From: Arthrobacter sp. D5-1
GTDB taxonomy: Bacteria; Actinomycetota; Actinomycetes; Actinomycetales; Micrococcaceae
Reading direction: 5' to 3'
DNA length: 64,000 nt
Assembly (NCBI RefSeq): GCF_017357425.1
Contig: NZ_CP014571.1
Location: 3,720,001 to 3,784,000, forward strand
Shown: positions 31,592 to 41,324 of the stretch, one piece after another
How the letters are laid out: the number at the start of each line of letters is the position of its first letter
How positions within the stretch are numbered: the first letter of the stretch is position 1
Notes under the pieces: generated by a model
What the model was told of the DNA's origin: nothing
Database searches by the model: none
Seen by the model: only the letters and a program-made list of their open reading frames with translations
Position numbers and translations under genes: made by a program

Positions 31592-32218
31592 ATGGCCCAG
31601 CAAGCTGATGGTTCACGGCAGTTACCTTCCACCACACCATCAGTCATTGGGCCAACAGCGCGTCCCGCACCACCACCCCGTCCGGGCATGTCCCTGTCAG
31701 TGCCGCCTCCCATTACCGCGGCCATCGTGCCACCGGGCACCGCACGGCTCTCCCGCTCCCTCTGGGTTGCCAGCTTTGTGGCGGGAATCGCCGTCGCCGT
31801 TTTCGGTTTCCTCGGCCGTGATGCCCACTTCGAGCGTCTGAAAGGCGTCATCGGAGGCATGGTTCCCGACGGTGACGCCCAAGCTGTCGAGGGATCCACC
31901 GCCGTCGTGTTCCTGGGCAGCCTCGCCATGATCGCGCTGGTGGTGGCCATGGAAGCCGTCCTGCTGATGGTGCTTTTCAAACGCCGTGTCTGGGCACGGT
32001 GGACCTTGGCGCCCTTGGTCCTCCTGCACGCGGTGGTCACAGTGATCACCGCAGACTTCGTGGTGGCTCCCGGTGCGGACGGCGTCTTGCCCACGGTTTT
32101 ACTGGCGTCCCAGTTCATCCTTGCCGCGGCGGGGCTGATCCTGCTGTTTTTCCCCTCAACTACTGTCTGGCTCCTGAGCGAAAAATTCAGCGAGCGACTC
32201 AGCGAACGGCCGGCATAG
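31592..32218 (+). CDS. Hypothetical four-helix membrane protein
   Basis: Protein of 208 residues. A 50-residue Pro-rich N-terminus is followed by four hydrophobic helices: LWVASFVAGIAVAVFGFLG, AVVFLGSLAMIALVVAMEAVLLMVLF, LAPLVLLHAVVTVITADFVV and LLASQFILAAAGLILLFF. No family recognised. Its 3' end overlaps that of the convergent dynamin-like gene by 20 bases. Confidence 0.75.
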   Translation: MAQQADGSRQLPSTTPSVIGPTARPAPPPRPGMSLSVPPPITAAIVPPGTARLSRSLWVASFVAGIAVAVFGFLGRDAHFERLKGVIGGMVPDGDAQAVEGSTAVVFLGSLAMIALVVAMEAVLLMVLFKRRVWARWTLAPLVLLHAVVTVITADFVVAPGADGVLPTVLLASQFILAAAGLILLFFPSTTVWLLSEKFSERLSERPA

Positions 32219-33671
32219 CGGCCAACATCCCTTCGCAACTCCGCACGACCACACGGCACGCTTCCAGTGCCGACGGCTCGGTCAACGGATTTTCCGCGAT
32301 CAGCCGCCAACGGCTCAAACAGCTCCGGGCAGCCTCGCTGATCTGCCTGGGATCCGCCTCCGGGTTCACGCCCAACCTCAACGAGGCAGTGCTGCCGCGG
32401 CCACCCACCAGCCGTTCCGCTTCAGCTTCCTGCACCTCATCCAGTCCCACGCCACCGGTCCGCAACGCGGCGAGGAGCTTGAGCTCCCGGAACTCATGAG
32501 CGCCAGCCTGGAGCCGTTCCAACGCCGCTTCCAGCGGCGCCGTCCGCTCCCTGGGAACCCCGCGGACCAATGACTCCAAACCCACGACGACGGCACGCGC
32601 CTTGAGTGCGTCGGCACGGTTCTGGAAGAGATAGCTGATGGCGTCCAGCAAAGTGCCCAGCCCGCTTCGACGTGCCAGTTCATGGGCCAGTTCGGTGGGA
32701 TCAGCAGTCCCGCCCCGGATCAGGGCAACACCCAGCCGAATCCCAAACAGGCCAAACCTTTGCACCAGCGATGCTTTGGTGGCCGGGCGGAGGCCTTGCG
32801 GAGCCTCGAAACGGACAAAACGGTCTGCGGACAGCATCATTCGTTCCCGCTGGCTCCGGTCCATCTGCGCCAGCATTGCCATGGCCTCATAGTCCGCCTG
32901 GCGCATGGTCCGTGAACTTTGTGCCAGCAGCCCGGCCACGGGCACCACACCCAAGGCCAAGGGTCTAAGGTTCTGGTCCCGGCTGTATCTGTCGGCGATG
33001 ACCGCTGCCGAAATCAGGGAGTCAATCCTTCCGGCGCCGATCTCGTCGGCCCGGGACAAGACAGCCAAGGCATTGACGGTACCGGATCGTCCGGCGGCGG
33101 TGTCCTTGAAGGATTCGAGGAACCGGACATCGGAGGCATGCAGGTGCCGCAGGAGATAGATGACGGCGTCCGCTGCCGTAGGTTCGTCTTCCGGCAGCAG
33201 GAAAGCCGCCGATCTCCCGGAAATATCCTCGGACATCGAGGCGATGCCGGGAGTATCGATCAACGTGAGATTGCGCAGGCCGGCTGATGGCCAGTCCACC
33301 ACCAGACGCTCCACATCCCCGGCCGGGATATCGCCCAAGGACAGGACCAAGCGGCCGTCTTCGCGGGTCACGGGGAGGTTTTGAGGTCCGCCCCGGAACG
33401 GGTAAACCGTGATTTTCGGAGTGTGTCCGTACTCGTACCACGTGACCACACGGGTGCATTCACCGGCGTCAGTGGGCGCGATTTCCTCGCCAATGATCGC
33501 GTTGAGGAGTGTTGATTTCCCGGCCTTGACCATCCCGGCCACCGCGATGCGCAACGGCCCTTTCAGCCGGCTGTCCAATTCGTCCACCACCGCGAGCGCA
33601 GCGGCGTCATCGCGGAAGACTTCCCGTGCGTGCCGGAGCAGGTCCGCGGCTCCGGCCATTCCCGGTTCCAT
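32199..33671 (-). CDS. Dynamin-like GTPase (IniC-like)
   Basis: Protein of 490 residues. G1 is GMVKAGKST (about residues 46-54), G2 Thr is in DAGECTRVVTWYEYG, G3 is DTPGIAS and G4 looks like LSRADEIG rather than the usual N/TKxD. The C-terminal 200 residues are helical, with no membrane segment. The short length and lack of a transmembrane paddle fit IniC more than IniA. The ATG overlaps the stop of the larger dynamin-like gene (TGATG), so the two are a translationally coupled pair, as many bacterial dynamin-like proteins are. Likely role: membrane remodelling or repair together with its neighbour. Confidence 0.85.
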   Translation of the reverse strand: MEPGMAGAADLLRHAREVFRDDAAALAVVDELDSRLKGPLRIAVAGMVKAGKSTLLNAIIGEEIAPTDAGECTRVVTWYEYGHTPKITVYPFRGGPQNLPVTREDGRLVLSLGDIPAGDVERLVVDWPSAGLRNLTLIDTPGIASMSEDISGRSAAFLLPEDEPTAADAVIYLLRHLHASDVRFLESFKDTAAGRSGTVNALAVLSRADEIGAGRIDSLISAAVIADRYSRDQNLRPLALGVVPVAGLLAQSSRTMRQADYEAMAMLAQMDRSQRERMMLSADRFVRFEAPQGLRPATKASLVQRFGLFGIRLGVALIRGGTADPTELAHELARRSGLGTLLDAISYLFQNRADALKARAVVVGLESLVRGVPRERTAPLEAALERLQAGAHEFRELKLLAALRTGGVGLDEVQEAEAERLVGGRGSTASLRLGVNPEADPRQISEAARSCLSRWRLIAENPLTEPSALEACRVVVRSCEGMLAAMPAVR

Positions 33672-35557
33672 CAGCCGGCCGGGACGGTTGAGGGTTTGGG
33701 TTGGTTTTCCATGGAGGGAGCTTCAAGCAGCTGCTGCGCTTCCCTGGCCATCGTGTCCACTGCCTTGAGATGGCCCCGGATTTCCTTGATCCGCAGGTCC
33801 CGTTCCACTGCGTAGGTTGCGGCAGCTTTTTGGGCAGCCGCCACGGATTCAGCCAGGGAGCGGTGGTGCTCCTCGGCGATCTCCGTGAAGTGGTCCCGTG
33901 TGGCCCTTTGGACCAGCCGCAGCCTGTCCCTCAGCTGTTTTCCGACTTGGAACACAACATCGTCCACGTGCTTCCTTACCAGGATCTTGGCTTCGGCTTG
34001 CCGCTGCTTGAGCCGGGCCTCTTTGTCTTCCCGGAAGGCTTTCCGTCCCAGCAGGAGGCCGGCGCCGACGGAGAGCGGGTTGATGAGGGCCATCCCAAAG
34101 ATGCCAGTGAGGAGGCCGAACATCAGCACGCCGCCATAGGATCCACGCATTCCGATCAGCACTTTTTGCAGGGGTCCGAGACGCCCGTTGTCCACCTCCT
34201 GGATGTCAGCCACGGGGTCCAGCACGCCGCCCGTATCGGCCACCTTCAACGCCGGCAGGGCTACCTCGTCCTCGGAAAAGTGGTCCGCCACCTGGGTGGC
34301 CAGCCACTGGGCCCGTTCGCTGGTCCAGACGAAGGTATCCGAGACCGCAGCAGCGGTGCTCTGCTCCAGCCACTGGGTGAACTGCTCCCAGGCGGGGCCG
34401 GGGTCCCCCTGGTCAATGGCGGTTTCCGCTTCGCGCTGGATCCGGCGCAACCTGTCCTTCAGGTCGTACTCCATGTCTGCGATGAGGTCCCCGATGCCAT
34501 CGTTGAGGGTGATCTGCCAGCGCGCCGACCGTTTGCGCAGCGAGTCCGCGTCCTCCTTGGCCGCATTGAGGCCGGCGATCATCTGCGGCGTGCCCTCGGG
34601 ATTCTCCAGGGCACCAAGCTCCGACTGCAGGGCGAGCCTCAGGTTTTCGGTCACGGACAAGAGATCATGGCCAACGGATCGACGTTGAATTCGGGCGGCC
34701 TCCCCCACAATGTTGTGCCTCAGGTGGTGGATCAGCTCAGGAAACCCTGATTCGGCGTTCAGTTCCGTGTCCTGCAGACGCGCCGCCTGGAGGCGAAGCT
34801 CCGAAGAGACCGGGAACAGGGGTATGTCCGGCCCCACCTCGGCAAGGTGTTTCCGGTCGAGGTCCTCGATTTGCCGCCAGCTCGGATAGAGGTCGGTCTT
34901 GGACAGTACGCACACCACGTTGGGGCTGATGCGCATGGCTTGGCGCAGGAACCGCATTTCCGGTTCGGTGTATTCCTGGGACGCATCGGAGACAAACACC
35001 ATGGCATGCGCTGACGGAAGGGCCGTCAGTGTGGTCAGCGTGTGCGTTGACCCCAGCCCACCCACCCCGGGCGAATCCACTATTGCCAGTCCACCCGCCA
35101 GCAGTTTCCTCGGCAAGACAACCTCAGCCGCCACGATGTTCTTCGCGTTGCCGGGATTGCCTTTTTCGGAGACGTAGTCAGCCAGGTGGTCCAACTGCAC
35201 GGGCTGGCGTTCCAGCGTTCGTTCGTGGCCGTCGCTGTCGAGCTCCGTACGAGTGCCTTCCAGCGTGCCACCCTCCGCAGCGGGAACCAGGACAACGGCC
35301 GACGCCGGTTCCCCCTGCCGGACCACCGTCGGCACAGTGGTGGCAATGTCGTCATCCACAGGGCAGACGGGCGCATTCACCAAAGCATTGATCAGTTGGC
35401 TCTTGCCTTGCTTGAACTCGCCCACCACGATCACGCGAACGCTGGGATCCTGAAGGCGGTTGTGGGTGTTTTCCAGGCGTCGCCGAAGGTCGTTCCGCTC
35501 CCCCACCAGCGCCATGCCCTGCTCCACCAATGTGGTCATCCGTACTGTTTCCGCCAT
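33671..35557 (-). CDS. Dynamin-like GTPase with membrane paddle (IniA-like)
   Basis: Protein of 628 residues starting at ATG 35557 with AAAGGA 6 nt upstream; a GTG at 35644 in frame lacks a ribosome binding site. G1 is GEFKQGKSQ (about residues 48-56), G3 DSPGVGGLG, G4 VLSKTDLY. After a long helical region, GVLMFGLLTGIFGMALINPL and LSVGAGLLLGRKAF (about residues 480-515) form a hydrophobic hairpin that should insert in the membrane, followed by a coiled-coil stalk. IniA of mycobacteria is a dynamin-like protein of similar size that causes membrane fission. It lies 140 bases after the IniB-like gene and overlaps the second GTPase gene. Confidence 0.88.
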   Translation of the reverse strand: MAETVRMTTLVEQGMALVGERNDLRRRLENTHNRLQDPSVRVIVVGEFKQGKSQLINALVNAPVCPVDDDIATTVPTVVRQGEPASAVVLVPAAEGGTLEGTRTELDSDGHERTLERQPVQLDHLADYVSEKGNPGNAKNIVAAEVVLPRKLLAGGLAIVDSPGVGGLGSTHTLTTLTALPSAHAMVFVSDASQEYTEPEMRFLRQAMRISPNVVCVLSKTDLYPSWRQIEDLDRKHLAEVGPDIPLFPVSSELRLQAARLQDTELNAESGFPELIHHLRHNIVGEAARIQRRSVGHDLLSVTENLRLALQSELGALENPEGTPQMIAGLNAAKEDADSLRKRSARWQITLNDGIGDLIADMEYDLKDRLRRIQREAETAIDQGDPGPAWEQFTQWLEQSTAAAVSDTFVWTSERAQWLATQVADHFSEDEVALPALKVADTGGVLDPVADIQEVDNGRLGPLQKVLIGMRGSYGGVLMFGLLTGIFGMALINPLSVGAGLLLGRKAFREDKEARLKQRQAEAKILVRKHVDDVVFQVGKQLRDRLRLVQRATRDHFTEIAEEHHRSLAESVAAAQKAAATYAVERDLRIKEIRGHLKAVDTMAREAQQLLEAPSMENQPKPSTVPAG

Positions 35558-35699
35558 GGTGTGTCCTTTGTTCTGCCTGTTCCGGTGCTGCTGTCCGGAG
35601 GGGCCACGAAGTGCCCGACAGGCGTCCATCCGCCTGCCGGGCACTGCTGGGGGTGCTCTGCGCCGCAGCTTCCGCTACGCCGTGTGGACCTCTTTGCCG

Positions 35700-37058
35700 C
35701 TAGTCGATCTCAACGTCGTTCTTGGCGATGACGTTCGAATGGTCAATGTCGTTGTATTCGACGTCAACTTCGTTGTCCTCGATGTTGGTGTAGCTCGACT
35801 TATCAACTTCGAGCTCGTTGTCCTGGATCACCGTGGAGTCGTAGTTGACCTGGACGTCCTCCACGTCGATTTCCTTGGAGTTGTCGATCTCCAACTCGTT
35901 GTCCTGGATCACCGTGGAATCGTAGTTGACCTGGACGTCCTCCAGTTCCACGTTGGTGGAGTGATCGTTGGTGTATTCCAGCTCCACCTCGTTGTCCTTG
36001 ATGATGGTGGAGTTCTCGATGTTCGTGTACTCCACGTCCACGTCGCCGACTTCCAACTCGTTCTCCGTGTTGTAGGAGTCCTTGTTGAACGAATCGGTGT
36101 TGTGGATGGTGGTGTGGGAGTTGTCGGTGTGGGAGGAGTTGTCCTCATTGAAGGAGTCCTCGATGTCCACGTCGACATCAACGTCGGTGTTGTAGGAGTC
36201 CTTGGTCACCGAGTTGTCCGAATTGTCGTTGAACGAATCCTTGACCTCGATGTCCGTGTTGCCCACCTCGACGTCGCCAGGGCCCGACTCATTGATGGTC
36301 AGCGAATTATCTGTTGAGTGGTCATCCGTGGAGGTGGTGTTGCCGGAGTCCTTCACGTCGTCGCCGGCGGCAATGGCACCGTCGCCCGAGGCGATGACAG
36401 CGTCCTGGTTGAAGAGCTGCGTGACATCGCCGTCAGCCCAGATGTTTTGGTTCACCGACTGATCGGTGATCGTATCGCGGTCATCGATAGTGGTGGTGTA
36501 GGAGTAGTTGTTCACCACGTGGACCAGTTGTTGAACGGCGTGGGCGTGGTCATCGTGGTCGTCGTGTCCGCCCCAGCCACCGCCGCCACCGCCGTGGCCG
36601 TGATCGTCGTCGTCATCATGGCCACCCCAGCCACCGCCGCCACCGCCACCGCCGTGGCCGTGATCGTCGTCGTCATCATGGCCACCCCAGCCACCGCCGC
36701 CACCGCCACCGCCACCGCCGTGGCCGTGATCGTCGTCGTCATCATGGCCACCCCAGCCACCGCCGCCACCGCCACCGCCGTGGCCGTGATCGTCATCATG
36801 GCCACCCCAGCCGGCGCCGCCGCCAGTGGAGGCATGGTTGCCGCCGGTGTTGTATTCGCGGTCGAACGACGAACGGGCGTTGATCGGTGCGTAGTCCAGG
36901 ACCACCGGGCGAACAGCATCGACGTCGGCCGAGGAAACGTCACGGAGGCCGGCTGCGGCCAGGGCAGCCTCGGGGTCGCGGACAAAGTCCTCGGCTGCAT
37001 CGGGATCGTTGAACAGGCTCATCAGGAACTGCACGAGCTGTTGTGCGAGTGTAGGCAT
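35700..37058 (-). CDS. IniB-like N-terminal domain protein with Gly/His/Asp and Asn/Asp repeats
   Basis: Protein of 452 residues. The first 60, with LAQQLVQFLMSLFNDPDAAEDFVRDPEAALAAAGL and VDAVRPVVLDY, match the IniB N-terminal domain. Residues 73-173 are a Gly-rich array built of HDDDDDHGHGGGGGGGGWGG-like units (possible metal binder). Residues 175-452 are Asn/Asp/Ser/Thr/Val-rich imperfect repeats (NYDSTVIQDNELEID, SFNKDSYNTENELEV), predicting a beta-solenoid. No signal peptide is seen. GGGAG lies 7 nt upstream of the ATG. It is followed by two dynamin-like GTPase genes, the iniBAC order. Function of IniB is unknown. Confidence 0.82.
   Translation of the reverse strand: MPTLAQQLVQFLMSLFNDPDAAEDFVRDPEAALAAAGLRDVSSADVDAVRPVVLDYAPINARSSFDREYNTGGNHASTGGGAGWGGHDDDHGHGGGGGGGGWGGHDDDDDHGHGGGGGGGGGGWGGHDDDDDHGHGGGGGGGGWGGHDDDDDHGHGGGGGGWGGHDDHDDHAHAVQQLVHVVNNYSYTTTIDDRDTITDQSVNQNIWADGDVTQLFNQDAVIASGDGAIAAGDDVKDSGNTTSTDDHSTDNSLTINESGPGDVEVGNTDIEVKDSFNDNSDNSVTKDSYNTDVDVDVDIEDSFNEDNSSHTDNSHTTIHNTDSFNKDSYNTENELEVGDVDVEYTNIENSTIIKDNEVELEYTNDHSTNVELEDVQVNYDSTVIQDNELEIDNSKEIDVEDVQVNYDSTVIQDNELEVDKSSYTNIEDNEVDVEYNDIDHSNVIAKNDVEID
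35821..35943 (-). repeat. 81-bp DNA repeat inside the IniB-like C-terminus
   Basis: A near-identical stretch begins at 35821 and again at 35902 (TCCTGGATCACCGTGGA then one differing base), giving a period of 81 bases or 27 residues. The encoded repeat contains VQVNYDSTVIQDNELE. Confidence 0.7.
36540..36840 (-). repeat. 60/66-bp tandem repeats encoding the Gly/His/Asp array
   Basis: Four copies of a unit containing GTGGCCGTGATCGTCGTCGT-like sequence start near 36594, 36654, 36720 and 36780, so periods are 60, 66 and 60 bases. Copies differ only in the number of CCGCCA (Gly-Gly) steps and Asp codons, as expected from replication slippage. Confidence 0.8.
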
Positions 37059-37096
37059 TGGAATGCTCCCTCAAATTCTGTGGTGGGTGGTAAATG

Positions 37097-37115
37097 GCCC
37101 GGCGCTTTGCCGGGC
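37097..37115 (-). promoter_or_regulatory. Stem-loop in the iniB-like leader
   Basis: GCCCGGC (37097-37103) pairs with GCCGGGC (37109-37115) around a five-base loop, 39-57 bases upstream of the IniB-like ATG. It could end transcription from the regulator gene or modulate leader RNA stability; there is no U-tract. Confidence 0.45.
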
Positions 37116-37183
37116 TCCCCTTCAACGTATGGCCGTGGTGAGGGACCGGGCATCGGGGGTGGTCCCCCTACCGCTTGCCCCAG

Positions 37184-37217
37184 CGTTAGGGGGTAGCGGG
37201 GTTTTCCGTTAGGGGGT
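37184..37217 (-). promoter_or_regulatory. Direct repeats, candidate activator sites for the iniB-like promoter
   Basis: CGTTAGGGGGT occurs at 37184-37194 and again at 37207-37217, 23 bases apart, and similarity extends further (GGGG blocks). GGGGGTGGTCCCCC (37155-37168) lies nearer the gene. A weak -10 TACGTT occurs further down on the minus strand. The spacing by about two helical turns suggests a dimeric or cooperative LuxR-type activator. Confidence 0.45.
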
Positions 37218-37232
37218 GGAGGGGGTTGCCGC

Positions 37233-39302
37233 TCACGGAGGCGGGTACCCCTCCCCCAAGGCAAGGCGCAGGCGGACCAGGAGGTCCGATCGGTTGTCGG
37301 CCCCCAAGCGCCTGCGCATGCGTGCCACGTGGTGTTCGGCAGTGCGTGGCGAGATGTAGATGGCTTCACCGATCTCCCGGTACGTCTTGCCTTCAAGAAG
37401 AAGCCGAGCCACTTCGCGTTCCCTGGCGCTCAGCCCGGACGGATCCCCCGCACCCGGGCTGGTGCCGTCCGGTGCAGGGGTACCCGCACCACCATGGTGC
37501 GGCTCCTCCACCCGATCGTGGCCCGCCCCGGCCGGAGCGCCTTGGGGATGGATGTCCCTGGCGCAGGCCAGCAGGCGCACCAGGTCGCGCCGTTCCTCCG
37601 CGTGCGCGGCGGCATGGCCCGCCAATCGCGCCCCTTCCCAAGGCATCCCGACGGCGGCCAACCCGCGGGCCGCCGCTTCGACGTCGGACGCTTCAAACCG
37701 GCCGGCCAACACCGAAACCCAGGCTTTGCCACCCACGGCAAGGACGGACGCCAGGTGGCTGTGTTCCGAAGCCCGAACCAGCGCGGCAGCGTGCGGCGCA
37801 AGCTCAGCGGGGCTTTCGCTCAGCAGTGCGGCCTGCACTGCCGCCCAGTGCAGCGGCACTGACCACAGTGGCGGGTTCCCCAACCTTTGTAAGAGCTCCC
37901 AGGCGCCGTCCACATAGTGCGAGACCCGACGTGTCTCGCGCAGCCGTGCAGCAGAAACCATCAGCTCACCCCAGGGCAGGAGACTGTAGAGATCCACGGC
38001 TACGTGCATCATGGCTTCCCGGGCCCGGTCCCACGCCAACACCAGCGCGTGCACGTCGCTGCCACGCCGTGCGAGCCCCACCTCCAGCGCTGACAGCAGC
38101 AGCTCGTCGCGGGGTGCCAAGGACCAATGGTTTGCCTTGACTGCCTCGTTGATGGCCAATCGGGCCTCGTCAGAGTTGTCCTGCTGCATGGCAGTCCAGG
38201 CCTGCAGGAGGAACAACCGGGGTCGGGCAGCATCCCCGCCCTGGCCCGCGGCCAACGCCGCCCTGAGCACAGTGTCTGCTACCGCCGGTTCCCCACTGTG
38301 GAGTGCGCAGAGGGCCGCCAGGGCCCCCGGGGTCTCCGGCAATGGAATCGCTGCGCCAGAGGCGTTCATCATGTCCGAGGCCCTGATGAGCTCCGGCAGG
38401 GCCAATTGAGGGTTGGGTCCAAGGGTCTGCCGCAGGCCCTCCTGGGTGAGCGTCAAAGCCACCGCCAGGAGCGTTGGCGAACCGGACGGCACGGCGGCAG
38501 CCATGATCTCTTCAGCCAGCACGGCATTTCCGGCGCCGATCATAGCCACTGCGGCCAGCGGGGCAGACCCCTGCAACCTGTCCGGCCCCAGCCAGCTGTA
38601 CGTGTCAGCACTCCGGGACAACATTCCCCGCTGTGCCCACACGGCGGCGGCCACGTCCACCCCCAGGCGAAGGTGGGGAGGTTCGGGCAAAGCGAGCAGC
38701 CTGTCAACGATCCTGCCAGCTTCGTCCAGATCCCCGGTGGCGGCCAAGGCCTGGGCACGCTTCGCGGCAATGTGGAGCTCCTTGTTCCCGGCAAGAAGCG
38801 CTTCGGCATAGAGATCCACGGCCAGACGCGGATCCGAGTCCAGGACGCTGTTTGCCACCTCTTCGAGTTCTGCGGCAACGCGGGCATCCTGCATCCCACT
38901 TCTAGCGAGGTCGCGGGCCAGGTCTCCCAAGGGACGGCCTTCGTCCAGGACCTTGTCCACGAGCTCACGCTGCAGCGCCCGGATGCGGGAAGGCGGGGTT
39001 CCATGCAGCAAGGCATGCTGGACCGTCCCCACTACGGACCCGTCGGCCAGCAGCAAGCCCGCATCCATGGCTGCAGTGATGATCGAGTCCAGGCCATCAT
39101 GGCCTTCAAGGCCACGCGGCAGGGGTGAAGGCAGCGTGAACCCCACGGATAGGGCTAGGAGCAGCTCGCGGACTTTCGCGGAATCCCCGGAAAGCTTCGG
39201 GACAGGGTGTGGCGCTGCCTCGTGAAGGGCGGCAGGTTCCTTGAACGGGTGATCGTCCGGCCCGGGTGGAAGGTGCCCGGGCTTAGGGTCATGTCCCGTC
39301 AT
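37233..39302 (-). CDS. LuxR family regulator without visible NTPase module
   Basis: Protein of 689 residues. The C-terminus (about residues 622-685) is a LuxR/GerE helix-turn-helix: GLSAREREVARLLLEGKTYREIGEAIYISPRTAEHHVARM. The rest resembles the TPR-like and winged-helix part of large LAL/MalT-type regulators (AAKRAQALAATGDLDEAGRIVDRLL and similar), but I find no Walker A (GxxxxGK) anywhere, so the NTPase switch of such regulators seems absent. The ATG follows the Hsp70-like stop by three bases. In M. tuberculosis a LuxR regulator gene also neighbours iniBAC, which supports it being the local activator. Confidence 0.85.
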   Translation of the reverse strand: MTGHDPKPGHLPPGPDDHPFKEPAALHEAAPHPVPKLSGDSAKVRELLLALSVGFTLPSPLPRGLEGHDGLDSIITAAMDAGLLLADGSVVGTVQHALLHGTPPSRIRALQRELVDKVLDEGRPLGDLARDLARSGMQDARVAAELEEVANSVLDSDPRLAVDLYAEALLAGNKELHIAAKRAQALAATGDLDEAGRIVDRLLALPEPPHLRLGVDVAAAVWAQRGMLSRSADTYSWLGPDRLQGSAPLAAVAMIGAGNAVLAEEIMAAAVPSGSPTLLAVALTLTQEGLRQTLGPNPQLALPELIRASDMMNASGAAIPLPETPGALAALCALHSGEPAVADTVLRAALAAGQGGDAARPRLFLLQAWTAMQQDNSDEARLAINEAVKANHWSLAPRDELLLSALEVGLARRGSDVHALVLAWDRAREAMMHVAVDLYSLLPWGELMVSAARLRETRRVSHYVDGAWELLQRLGNPPLWSVPLHWAAVQAALLSESPAELAPHAAALVRASEHSHLASVLAVGGKAWVSVLAGRFEASDVEAAARGLAAVGMPWEGARLAGHAAAHAEERRDLVRLLACARDIHPQGAPAGAGHDRVEEPHHGGAGTPAPDGTSPGAGDPSGLSAREREVARLLLEGKTYREIGEAIYISPRTAEHHVARMRRRLGADNRSDLLVRLRLALGEGYPPP

Positions 39303-39305
39303 GGG

Positions 39306-41324
39306 CTACACCGCCGGAAGCATCGCTGGATCCGGAATGGGGCCCGTTTGCGAGGGCTCGGGTAAGGGATCAGCCGTGACAGGCGGGGGTACCGGTTCCG
39401 GCGTTGGCTCGGGTGACGGCGGTGGGGGGTCTTGCGTGAGCGTCGGTTCAGGCTGCGGCACTGTTGGCTCGGGCGACGGCGGTGGAGGTGGCGTGACAGG
39501 ATCAGCCGGGGTTGTAGGCGGAGTTGTGGGTTCGATGACCGGTGGCGGCGTGGTGGGGGGTGTTGCAGGCGGCGGTGTAGGCCCACTGGCGGCGCCACCA
39601 GTAGGCGCCGGTGTGGGTGTGCTGGGAGCCGGGGTGGTGCCCGGAGCAGCGGGGGTTCCCGTGCCCGGCGCCGCAGGAGTGGCGGTGGCGGTTCCGCCGG
39701 ATGAGGTGCCCGGGGAGGTGCCGGCAGCAGGTCCTGCACCGGGTCCCGCAGCGGCCCCCGATCCAGTTCCGGCATTCGTTGTTCCGGTCCGGGCCGGGCT
39801 CTTCCCCATCCCATTCCCTGCCTTGGTAACCCCGGCCCTGGCGCTGGCTTCAAGTCCACCCGCCGGCTTGCCTACCGTCGGGGTTTCCCCGTTCTTCCCG
39901 CCACCGGCAACACTGCCTTGGCCCCCTGAAGCCTGAGGACCGCCGTCGCGCATGACATCAGCGGCCTGGTTCCCCAACACGGTTGCCAGCAACCCACTGC
40001 CTTCGGGACTCTGGGCCGCCGTCGCCGTCGCGATGGTCAAGGCGGCCGCCGCTGCAGCCGCGGCCGCAGCCATCCGGACACGCGGCCGGGGAGCCGGCCG
40101 GCCCTGCTTTGCGGACGCTGCTGCGCGGACGCCCAGGGCTGGGGGCCGGCTGGCGGTATGCGGGCGCCCCAGCGCGCCGATCGCCACCACGTCGTCAGCC
40201 GCTGCCCCGACAGCGGCCGCAGCCGCCGCGTCCACGGCCTCTTCGGCCCTAGAGCGCAAACCAGCCACCGCTGCCCCCAGGCAGATGGAGGACTTGGGAT
40301 CGGCGTCGACGGCGATGGGCCGGCCAAGTTCCACCGAAATCATCTGGGCCACGAGGGGAATGCGCGATGACCCACCGATGAGCAGCACGGCGCTCAGATC
40401 CTGAGAGTCCACGTTGACGCTCTGCAAGCTTCGTTCCAGTGCTTCCACGGTTTCCCGGAGGGGCTCCTCGATGAGCGCTTCGAATTCGGCGCGGACCAAC
40501 CGCACAGACTGCTGTGTTCCCGGCAGGGAAACTGCCACACTGGATTCGCTGTCCAGGGACAGCGCTTCCTTGGCCTCACGGCATTCCCTCCGCAGTCTCG
40601 AAAGGGCTGCGAGGGTGTCCGGCGCCTCCGGATCCACGTCCCCGGATGCCTTGACGTGGCCCATCACGTGCCGCAGGACGGCGGCGTCGAAGTCTGCGCC
40701 GCCAAGGGTTTCAATACCGTCGGGACGTCCCAGCAACTCAAAGTTCCCGGCTCCGGCTTTGCGCAGGATGGCAGTGTCGAACGTACCTCCGCCGAGGTCG
40801 TACACAGCGATGATGCTGCCATCTTCCACCCGCGTTTGGGAGGCGTAGTGCAGGGCCGCTGCTTCCGGCTCACTGATCAGGGTGATGTCATGGAGGCCCG
40901 CCGCGTTGAGCGCTGCGAGAACCACCGAGGTCCGGTGCTGGCCCCAGGCAGCGGGGTGCGTCATGATGATCGACGACGGCGCCGTCCCCTCCCGCTCCCC
41001 GGCCCTGTCCACCACCCACCGGGCCATTGTGGCGTACACATCCTCCGGGGCCAGCCAGCCCTCGCCGACAGCGAGGGGAACGGAATCCCCGATCCGACGC
41101 TTGAACTCACGCACCATATGGTGGGGATCGTCCAGGCCCCGGCGTTCGGCGGCTTCGCCTACCAGCACTCGGCCGTCGTCGGTATAGAACAACACCGATG
41201 GCACGGCGTTGCCATGTAAACCCAACGGGAGGATTTCCGGTGTAGGGGTTGGACCTTGGTCAGGCTTAACCAGGGCTGCTGCGGTAAAACTCGTCCCGAC
41301 GTCAATGGCGAGAACATAGTTCAT
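39306..41324 (-). CDS. Membrane-anchored Hsp70-type ATPase with Pro/Gly-rich tail
   Basis: Protein of 672 residues from ATG 41324 (GAGG 6 nt upstream). Residues 1-370 are an Hsp70/actin-type ATPase: LAIDVGTSFTAAAL (phosphate 1), YDLGGGTFDTAIL (phosphate 2), VLLIGGSSRIPLVAQM (adenosine). The Hsp70 peptide-binding domain is missing. Around residues 415-440 there is an Ala-rich hydrophobic segment that can span the membrane, and from there to the end the chain is Pro/Thr/Gly-rich low complexity (PAPTGGAASGPTPPP), probably outside the cell. The substrate or signal is unknown. It is the first gene of the transcription unit with the LuxR regulator. Confidence 0.88.
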   Translation of the reverse strand: MNYVLAIDVGTSFTAAALVKPDQGPTPTPEILPLGLHGNAVPSVLFYTDDGRVLVGEAAERRGLDDPHHMVREFKRRIGDSVPLAVGEGWLAPEDVYATMARWVVDRAGEREGTAPSSIIMTHPAAWGQHRTSVVLAALNAAGLHDITLISEPEAAALHYASQTRVEDGSIIAVYDLGGGTFDTAILRKAGAGNFELLGRPDGIETLGGADFDAAVLRHVMGHVKASGDVDPEAPDTLAALSRLRRECREAKEALSLDSESSVAVSLPGTQQSVRLVRAEFEALIEEPLRETVEALERSLQSVNVDSQDLSAVLLIGGSSRIPLVAQMISVELGRPIAVDADPKSSICLGAAVAGLRSRAEEAVDAAAAAAVGAAADDVVAIGALGRPHTASRPPALGVRAAASAKQGRPAPRPRVRMAAAAAAAAAALTIATATAAQSPEGSGLLATVLGNQAADVMRDGGPQASGGQGSVAGGGKNGETPTVGKPAGGLEASARAGVTKAGNGMGKSPARTGTTNAGTGSGAAAGPGAGPAAGTSPGTSSGGTATATPAAPGTGTPAAPGTTPAPSTPTPAPTGGAASGPTPPPATPPTTPPPVIEPTTPPTTPADPVTPPPPPSPEPTVPQPEPTLTQDPPPPSPEPTPEPVPPPVTADPLPEPSQTGPIPDPAMLPAV

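Follow-up and report, generated by a model that had tools for sequence, protein, structure and literature searches.

We consider a locus of five consecutive genes on the minus strand of Arthrobacter sp. D5-1, lying at 32199-41324 of a 64,000-nucleotide stretch of contig NZ_CP014571.1 (referred to here as the window). In the order of transcription the genes encode an Hsp70-like protein, an IniR-type regulator, IniB, IniA and IniC, and gene calls, domain matches and the sequence itself confirm this arrangement, which had been proposed in the initial annotation of the window. Reading the junctions from the sequence, we find 3 nt between the hsp70 stop codon and the ATG of iniR, 174 nt between iniR and iniB, 142 nt between iniB and iniA (counted from the ATG at 35557, or 55 nt if the earliest GTG is used) and an overlap of 1 nt between iniA and iniC. 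The tight junctions that had been described everywhere except before iniB are therefore present at hsp70-iniR and iniA/iniC, while that of iniB and iniA is not one of them. The nearest named relatives of the regulator are found in Paenarthrobacter and its neighbours (83% identity in P. aurescens TC1).

The first gene (39306-41324) encodes a protein of 672 amino acids with a nucleotide-binding domain (NBD, residues 1-355), a predicted membrane segment (residues 418-436) and a tail rich in Pro, Ala and Thr (residues 437-672). It matches the Pfam HSP70 model with an E-value of 8e-49 over model positions 2-372 of 599 and DnaK in the PDB with an E-value of 1.5e-37, and its predicted structure (mean pLDDT 70) matches the DnaK NBD in Foldseek with an E-value of 6.3e-25. 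The alignment with the genome's own DnaK, which is encoded separately elsewhere, places the NBD at 40260-41324 with the motifs DVGTSFT, EFKRRIG, SEPEAA, DLGGGTFD and LIGGSSRIP. According to this alignment all five scored core catalytic positions are kept; these we take to be D8, K70, E171, D194 and T199 in DnaK numbering, with the roles assumed for them there. A substrate-binding domain is not found in the protein: the alignment to the Pfam model breaks off at position 372 of 599, and what lies beyond is the membrane segment and the Pro/Ala/Thr-rich stretch.

The membrane segment (MAAAAAAAAAALTIATATA, 40017-40073) is predicted from hydropathy and occupies a comparable place in the relatives. 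It is Ala-rich with a modest mean hydropathy of 1.66, is preceded by an Arg-rich stretch, and in most relatives has an equal or higher hydropathy than in the window. The tail has 236 residues, 76% of which are Pro, Thr, Ser, Gly or Ala. By the positive-inside rule, arginines ahead of such a segment predict that what follows lies outside, and the tail is thus predicted to be external. The architecture of NBD, single membrane segment and low-complexity tail recurs in the relatives, with exceptions given below. As a separate observation, in two families (f52 and f65; loci L181, L182, L184 and L185) the external tail closes with a conserved stretch that looks folded and carries motifs resembling HVHFFFDT and LCVLVANPDHSV, in place of plain Pro-rich sequence.

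The second gene (37233-39302) encodes a regulator of 689 amino acids, which is of the IniR type and has no N-terminal ATPase domain. The NCBIfam IniR model (NF038181) matches it with an E-value of 2e-109 and 367 bits, below the 750-bit cut-off, and only over positions 273-824 of 827. A Walker A motif is not found in the regulator, the other reading frames of the window locus give no match to an ATPase domain, and there is no room for such a domain upstream because iniR starts 3 nt after hsp70. The structure model (mean pLDDT 84) has a small helical or winged-helix-like part (residues 39-90), a superhelix resembling tetratricopeptide repeats (TPR, residues 92-584) and a LuxR-type helix-turn-helix (HTH, residues 623-676; 37275-37436, GerE match with an E-value of 1e-12). 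The best Foldseek matches are TPR proteins with low TM-scores, and MalT is absent from the 50 best matches listed. When 23 loci are compared side by side, the recognition region of the HTH is similar in regulators with and without the ATPase domain. The LuxR-type regulator claimed earlier is thus borne out by the GerE and NF038181 matches, and the relationship to IniR, which had only been hinted at, can be made specific.

The remaining three genes form the effector portion of the locus. IniB (35700-37058) is recognized by its N-terminal domain (NF038175, IniB_NTERM, 72.1 bits against a cut-off of 40) at residues 7-55, which is followed by Gly/Asp/His repeats and a C-terminal half rich in Asn and Asp. 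The tandem repeats themselves (36568-36794) would be compatible with the binding of metal ions. IniA (33671-35557) is a dynamin-like GTPase (Dynamin_N, E-value 1.2e-19) that aligns with the structure of M. smegmatis IniA (PDB accession code: 6J72) over residues 15-604 of 628 with an E-value of 1.8e-134; GTP-dependent membrane fission by mycobacterial IniA in vitro is described in PMC6715688. Directly after iniA lies the gene of a second dynamin-like GTPase, IniC (32199-33671; Dynamin_N, E-value 1.5e-13), with matches to BDLP (2J68, E-value 2e-9) and to IniA (6J72, E-value 1.6e-4). Together with the IniR-type regulator, these three proteins support the view of the locus as an iniBAC-like module.

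Upstream of iniB, in the gap behind the regulator gene, we find a putative IniR operator (37185-37215), formed by the pair CCCCTAACG ... CCCCTAAC. The element CCCCTAA(C/T)G recurs upstream of iniB in direct orientation, and the paired CCCCTAA(C/T) form occurs once in the 5.12 Mb genome, at this very site (none for the reversed control), a singleness that was tested only after the motif had been counted. Of 145 distinct iniB upstreams of 250 nt, 101 contain CCCCTAA and 70 have two or more copies of it, and in 200 rounds of Markov shuffling no more than 10 upstreams had it. By family, it is found in 45/56 upstreams of f1, 48/62 of f6, 7/22 of f4, 2/5 of f15, 0/1 of Georgenia and 0/1 of f52. Upstream of hsp70 the heptamer is seen in just 2 of the 72 co-oriented loci. 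Between the operator and a -10-like element (TACGTT, 37124-37129), which is found at a comparable place in several relatives and marks a putative iniB promoter, lies a recurring CCGATGC element (37150-37156). A scan for sigma-70 promoters found no site of that type.

To examine how constant the arrangement is, the relatives were sampled through the regulator. At an E-value of 1e-10, matches were found in 16 of 118 genomes of the class and 25 of 197 of the family, some of them to the HTH only, and the named genomes gave 41 loci. Further sampling gave matching genomes in 131 of 246 (most HTH-only, with 8 over the cut-off), 19 of 299, 133 of 251, 5 of 5 and 16 of 396. HTH-only matches were left out. 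For the family f6, which is probably Mycobacteriaceae because its genus g8 passes the IniR cut-off, 66 of the 133 matching genomes were taken. One of the two places in genome G1273 was omitted. The resulting set has 158 loci and the window, and near relatives are over-represented in it. Eleven of the 159 were set aside beforehand: seven at contig edges (L059, L068, L128, L129, L147, L209, L214), one with a split frame (L141), one with N's (L086) and two duplicates (L162, L163). No Hsp70-like gene is seen in L059, L068, L147 and L209, and only weak matches in L128 and L214, where the contigs end.

Every one of the 148 usable IniR loci holds an Hsp70-like gene. In 130 it immediately precedes iniR and shares its strand, and for 107 of these the distance from the Hsp70 stop to the closest start codon falls between -4 and +10 nt. 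The linkage recurs in several actinobacterial families. The co-occurrence check that had been suggested for the Hsp70-like gene thus makes it a standing partner. IniB is present in 139 of the loci, IniA in 137, IniC in 130 and all three in 123, some being cut by the ends of contigs or stretches. Several loci also have features of their own. iniR is flanked on both sides by Hsp70-like genes in L125, L131 and L132, and more weakly in L187-L205; of 63 f6 loci, 35 have a downstream Hsp70-like match, which in many of them scores below 60 bits. A decayed-looking Pseudarthrobacter locus (L074, 7814-12594) has altered Hsp70 motifs and an iniB, while iniA and iniC are not found in the stretch examined. 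In two loci (L086 and L088) an open frame runs on from Hsp70 into IniR; we do not claim them as fusions, because L086 has a run of N's at the junction and the junction of L088 lies in repeats and looks like a frame change.

Sampling by IniA instead (29 of 246 genomes with a match) gave 15 further stretches. Ten of these are IniA-IniC pairs with no IniR in view, of which six (L247 and L249-L253, some at contig ends) have no Hsp70-like gene in the fetched stretch either; the lone IniA genes of L244, L248 and L254 have none in view. IniA-IniC relatives without an Hsp70-like neighbour therefore exist, and they are mostly the more divergent ones. Two stretches, L243 and L257, probably continue L128 and L136, already counted or set aside, across contig breaks. 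L243 was dropped as a pair without IniR, since its contig ends after the Hsp70-like gene and IniR opens another contig of the same genome (L128). The start of that contig (G107 C37) carries two tandem IniR-type genes, the second being shorter, and the Hsp70-like gene and iniBAC that belong with them apparently lie at the end of the other one (G107 C45).

The next question is whether the two potential ATP sites, one in the Hsp70 fold and one in the N-terminal domain of IniR, are kept together. We score the IniR ATPase as absent where a purpose-built profile gives no match, bearing in mind that L183 has N's upstream and that L184 and L240 retain P-loop-like remains (GGFGKT and GVDGAGRT). With the ATPase intact, the Hsp70 core is complete in 21 loci and incomplete in 37; with the ATPase absent, it is complete in 49 (the window and 48 others) and incomplete in 23; with a degenerate ATPase, it is complete in 4 and incomplete in 14. 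The other frames give no match to an ATPase domain in 67 of the 72 loci scored as lacking one. In L130, L199 and L240 the usual Lys of the IniR P-loop is an Arg (GVDGAGRT, GANGSGRS), perhaps an intermediate in the decay of the ATPase.

The Hsp70 core is thus incomplete in 74 of the 148 loci (alignment gaps at D8 being treated as losses), in L181 through an alignment gap alone. These 74 keep D194 in 71 cases and the adenosine-site Gly in 73, and also E171 in 43, K70 in 3 and T199 in 9, so that judged from sequence the proteins look like a retained fold without hydrolysis. On a FastTree phylogeny built from 112 IniA sequences (the named loci of the Arthrobacter group were cut to 11 of 33 usable, and loci without 400 residues of IniA were dropped), the intact state of the IniR ATPase changes at least 18 times and the complete state of the Hsp70 core 7 times. 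Independent pairs on this tree give no association of the two states (12 pairs; on average 1.4 opposite against 0.3 same; median p of 1). The initial annotation had the anchored ATPase sensing a signal. While the core in the window is complete, this does not hold as a general rule, since half of the loci are scored as incomplete.

Putting these pieces together, we lean towards reading this iniBAC-type envelope-stress locus as a sensor-regulator pair, made of the membrane Hsp70-fold protein and IniR, joined to an effector operon that has a dedicated operator. The Hsp70 fold would be held in the cytoplasm by its single anchor, with the Pro-rich tail reaching into the wall. Changes in this protein that depend on nucleotide or on the wall may hold or release the TPR regulator, which, once released, would bind the repeated CCCCTAA(C/T)G element ahead of iniB and switch on IniB and the two dynamin-like GTPases, which would in turn remodel the plasma membrane. 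The Hsp70-fold protein would then act as the receptor and the regulator as the output, the hsp70-iniR pair itself lacking an operator of the iniB type. Because the regulator of the window has no ATPase domain, any ATP input within the pair would enter through the Hsp70 fold. We infer the physical contact between the two proteins, the direction of control, the signal and the sensing step; the earlier claim that the regulator turns on the GTPases and the repeat protein is supported indirectly, by the distribution of the operator-like repeat. A broader proposal, which we put forward tentatively, is that control of the ini locus lies with a class of membrane-spanning receptor built from the Hsp70 nucleotide-binding fold and a wall-reaching tail. 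This receptor would be an ancestral partner of IniR-type regulators in actinobacteria, kept even where both proteins lost ATP hydrolysis, and would signal by binding and release, not by an ATPase cycle.

Several observations weigh against the sensor-regulator reading. The anchor of the window is only modestly hydrophobic; a good segment is lacking in L137, in L148 and in the first of the L130 copies, and the best one of L066, L145 and L157 overlaps the end of the NBD. The heptamer is scarce in f4, is missing from 8 of 9 upstreams in genus g79, and was spotted by eye in the same sequences in which it was later counted, making the count descriptive. In BCG the iniBAC promoter is bound at a different palindrome by another regulator, HpoR (PMC13413693), so that the control of iniBAC is not IniR's alone everywhere. 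The Hsp70-like gene is not scored as directly upstream of iniR in 18 of the 148 loci and often lies beyond iniB or iniC; this call uses the 90-bit threshold of a purpose-built profile, on which those 18 loci score at least 260 bits, and it includes L088, where Hsp70 and IniR share one open frame. Finally, an Hsp70-like gene is near four of the ten IniA-IniC pairs without IniR in view (L245, L246, L255 and L256). There the protein may serve the GTPases, or another regulator may serve these pairs.

This last point leads to the chief rival, which we regard as possible but rather unlikely: the Hsp70-fold protein would be part of the effector arm and would anchor or pace IniA/IniC or IniB at the membrane, its adjacency to iniR reflecting co-regulation or history. 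Besides those four pairs, it would account for most loci of f15, f52, f65, f75 and f10, in which the Hsp70-like gene is on the iniB/iniA/iniC side. However, 130 of the 148 loci have this gene immediately before iniR, and in f6, where iniBAC is divergent, hsp70 is nevertheless co-oriented with iniR. The heptamer is so rare upstream of hsp70 that the gene does not look induced with iniBAC, and the six pairs lacking both IniR and an Hsp70-like gene do not fit an effector role either, although some are at contig ends.

The states of the two ATP sites could suggest a different relation, in which the Hsp70 ATPase replaces in trans the domain lost from IniR and at least one of the two must remain active. 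The window and 48 other loci lack the IniR ATPase and keep the Hsp70 core, 37 loci show the reverse (counting L181), and both patterns recur within f1 and f4. As a rule this replacement appeared strong in the first 78 relatives and failed in the wider set: 23 loci have an intact form of neither (20 in f6, L178, L173 and the decayed L074), 21 keep both, and the independent pairs show no association. We therefore consider it improbable. That the protein is an ordinary chaperone sitting here by chance is hardly credible; the Hsp70 NBD is clear, but a membrane segment and low-complexity tail stand in place of the substrate-binding domain, the linkage holds in every usable locus and the genome encodes a separate DnaK. 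A defence system was also considered and rejected, PADLOC giving only weak matches to dynamin (LeoA/LeoBC), HTH and Hsp70-fold entries.

The conserved Hsp70-fold membrane partner is a candidate for the missing sensor through which iniBAC would respond to envelope damage, and its presence in many related bacteria suggests that a part of the sensing machinery has been overlooked. In M. tuberculosis and M. marinum, iniBAC is under the control of IniR, which activates it and binds to its promoter (Boot et al. 2017, PMC5760070); the same paper gives the layout of IniR as an AAA domain, a middle part like MalT domain III and a LuxR HTH. The signals proposed for iniBAC are trehalose and an ATP burst, its induction being linked to the burst, with the AAA domain of IniR suggested as the ATP sensor (PMC5760070; PMC6104191). 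A natural IniR without the AAA domain, with the operator-like repeat still present, makes this proposal directly testable in a soil bacterium. Among the open-licence papers listed by our searches we found no report of the Hsp70-iniR pairing across several actinobacterial families, of an IniR without its N-terminal ATPase domain or of that state changing repeatedly, or of an Hsp70-like partner that is kept yet often lacks the residues for hydrolysis. Nor did these papers include a report of CCCCTAA upstream of iniB, a repeat that could have been described before in subscription papers dealing with the iniBAC promoter.

The Hsp70-like partner had been presented as a new element of such loci, but a dnaK-like gene beside iniR of M. 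smegmatis is already in print, in one sentence of Boot et al. (2017, PMC5760070). It resembles the gene of the window in being Hsp70-related and adjoining iniR; it differs in being placed downstream of iniR, while ours is upstream and recurs across families, and the section that mentions it gives no topology, conservation or role. With the mycobacterial IniR-iniBAC system as a whole, the window shares the N-terminal domain of IniB, a near full-length IniA, IniC, a TPR/LuxR regulator with a similar HTH and the operator-like heptamer, which is also upstream of iniB in most of the f6 loci. In contrast to that system, the window regulator has no AAA/STAND ATPase domain, the Hsp70 catalytic core is intact where it is degenerate in the genus g8 loci passing the IniR cut-off, IniB carries Asp/His/Gly repeats, and its five genes all run in one direction, while in the f6 loci iniBAC and iniR are divergent.

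Two wider groups may also be compared. The Hsp70 chaperones (DnaK) share with our protein the actin-like nucleotide-binding domain with its DLGGGTFD and adenosine motifs, but the window protein has, in place of a substrate-binding domain, a membrane anchor and a tail predicted to face the wall. Regulators of the MalT-type STAND class have an NTPase domain, a TPR-like superhelix followed by a LuxR HTH, and short repeated operators. The window regulator is like them in its superhelix, its HTH and the repeated short operator, and unlike them in missing the NTPase domain; a likeness of IniR to MalT is noted in PMC5760070.

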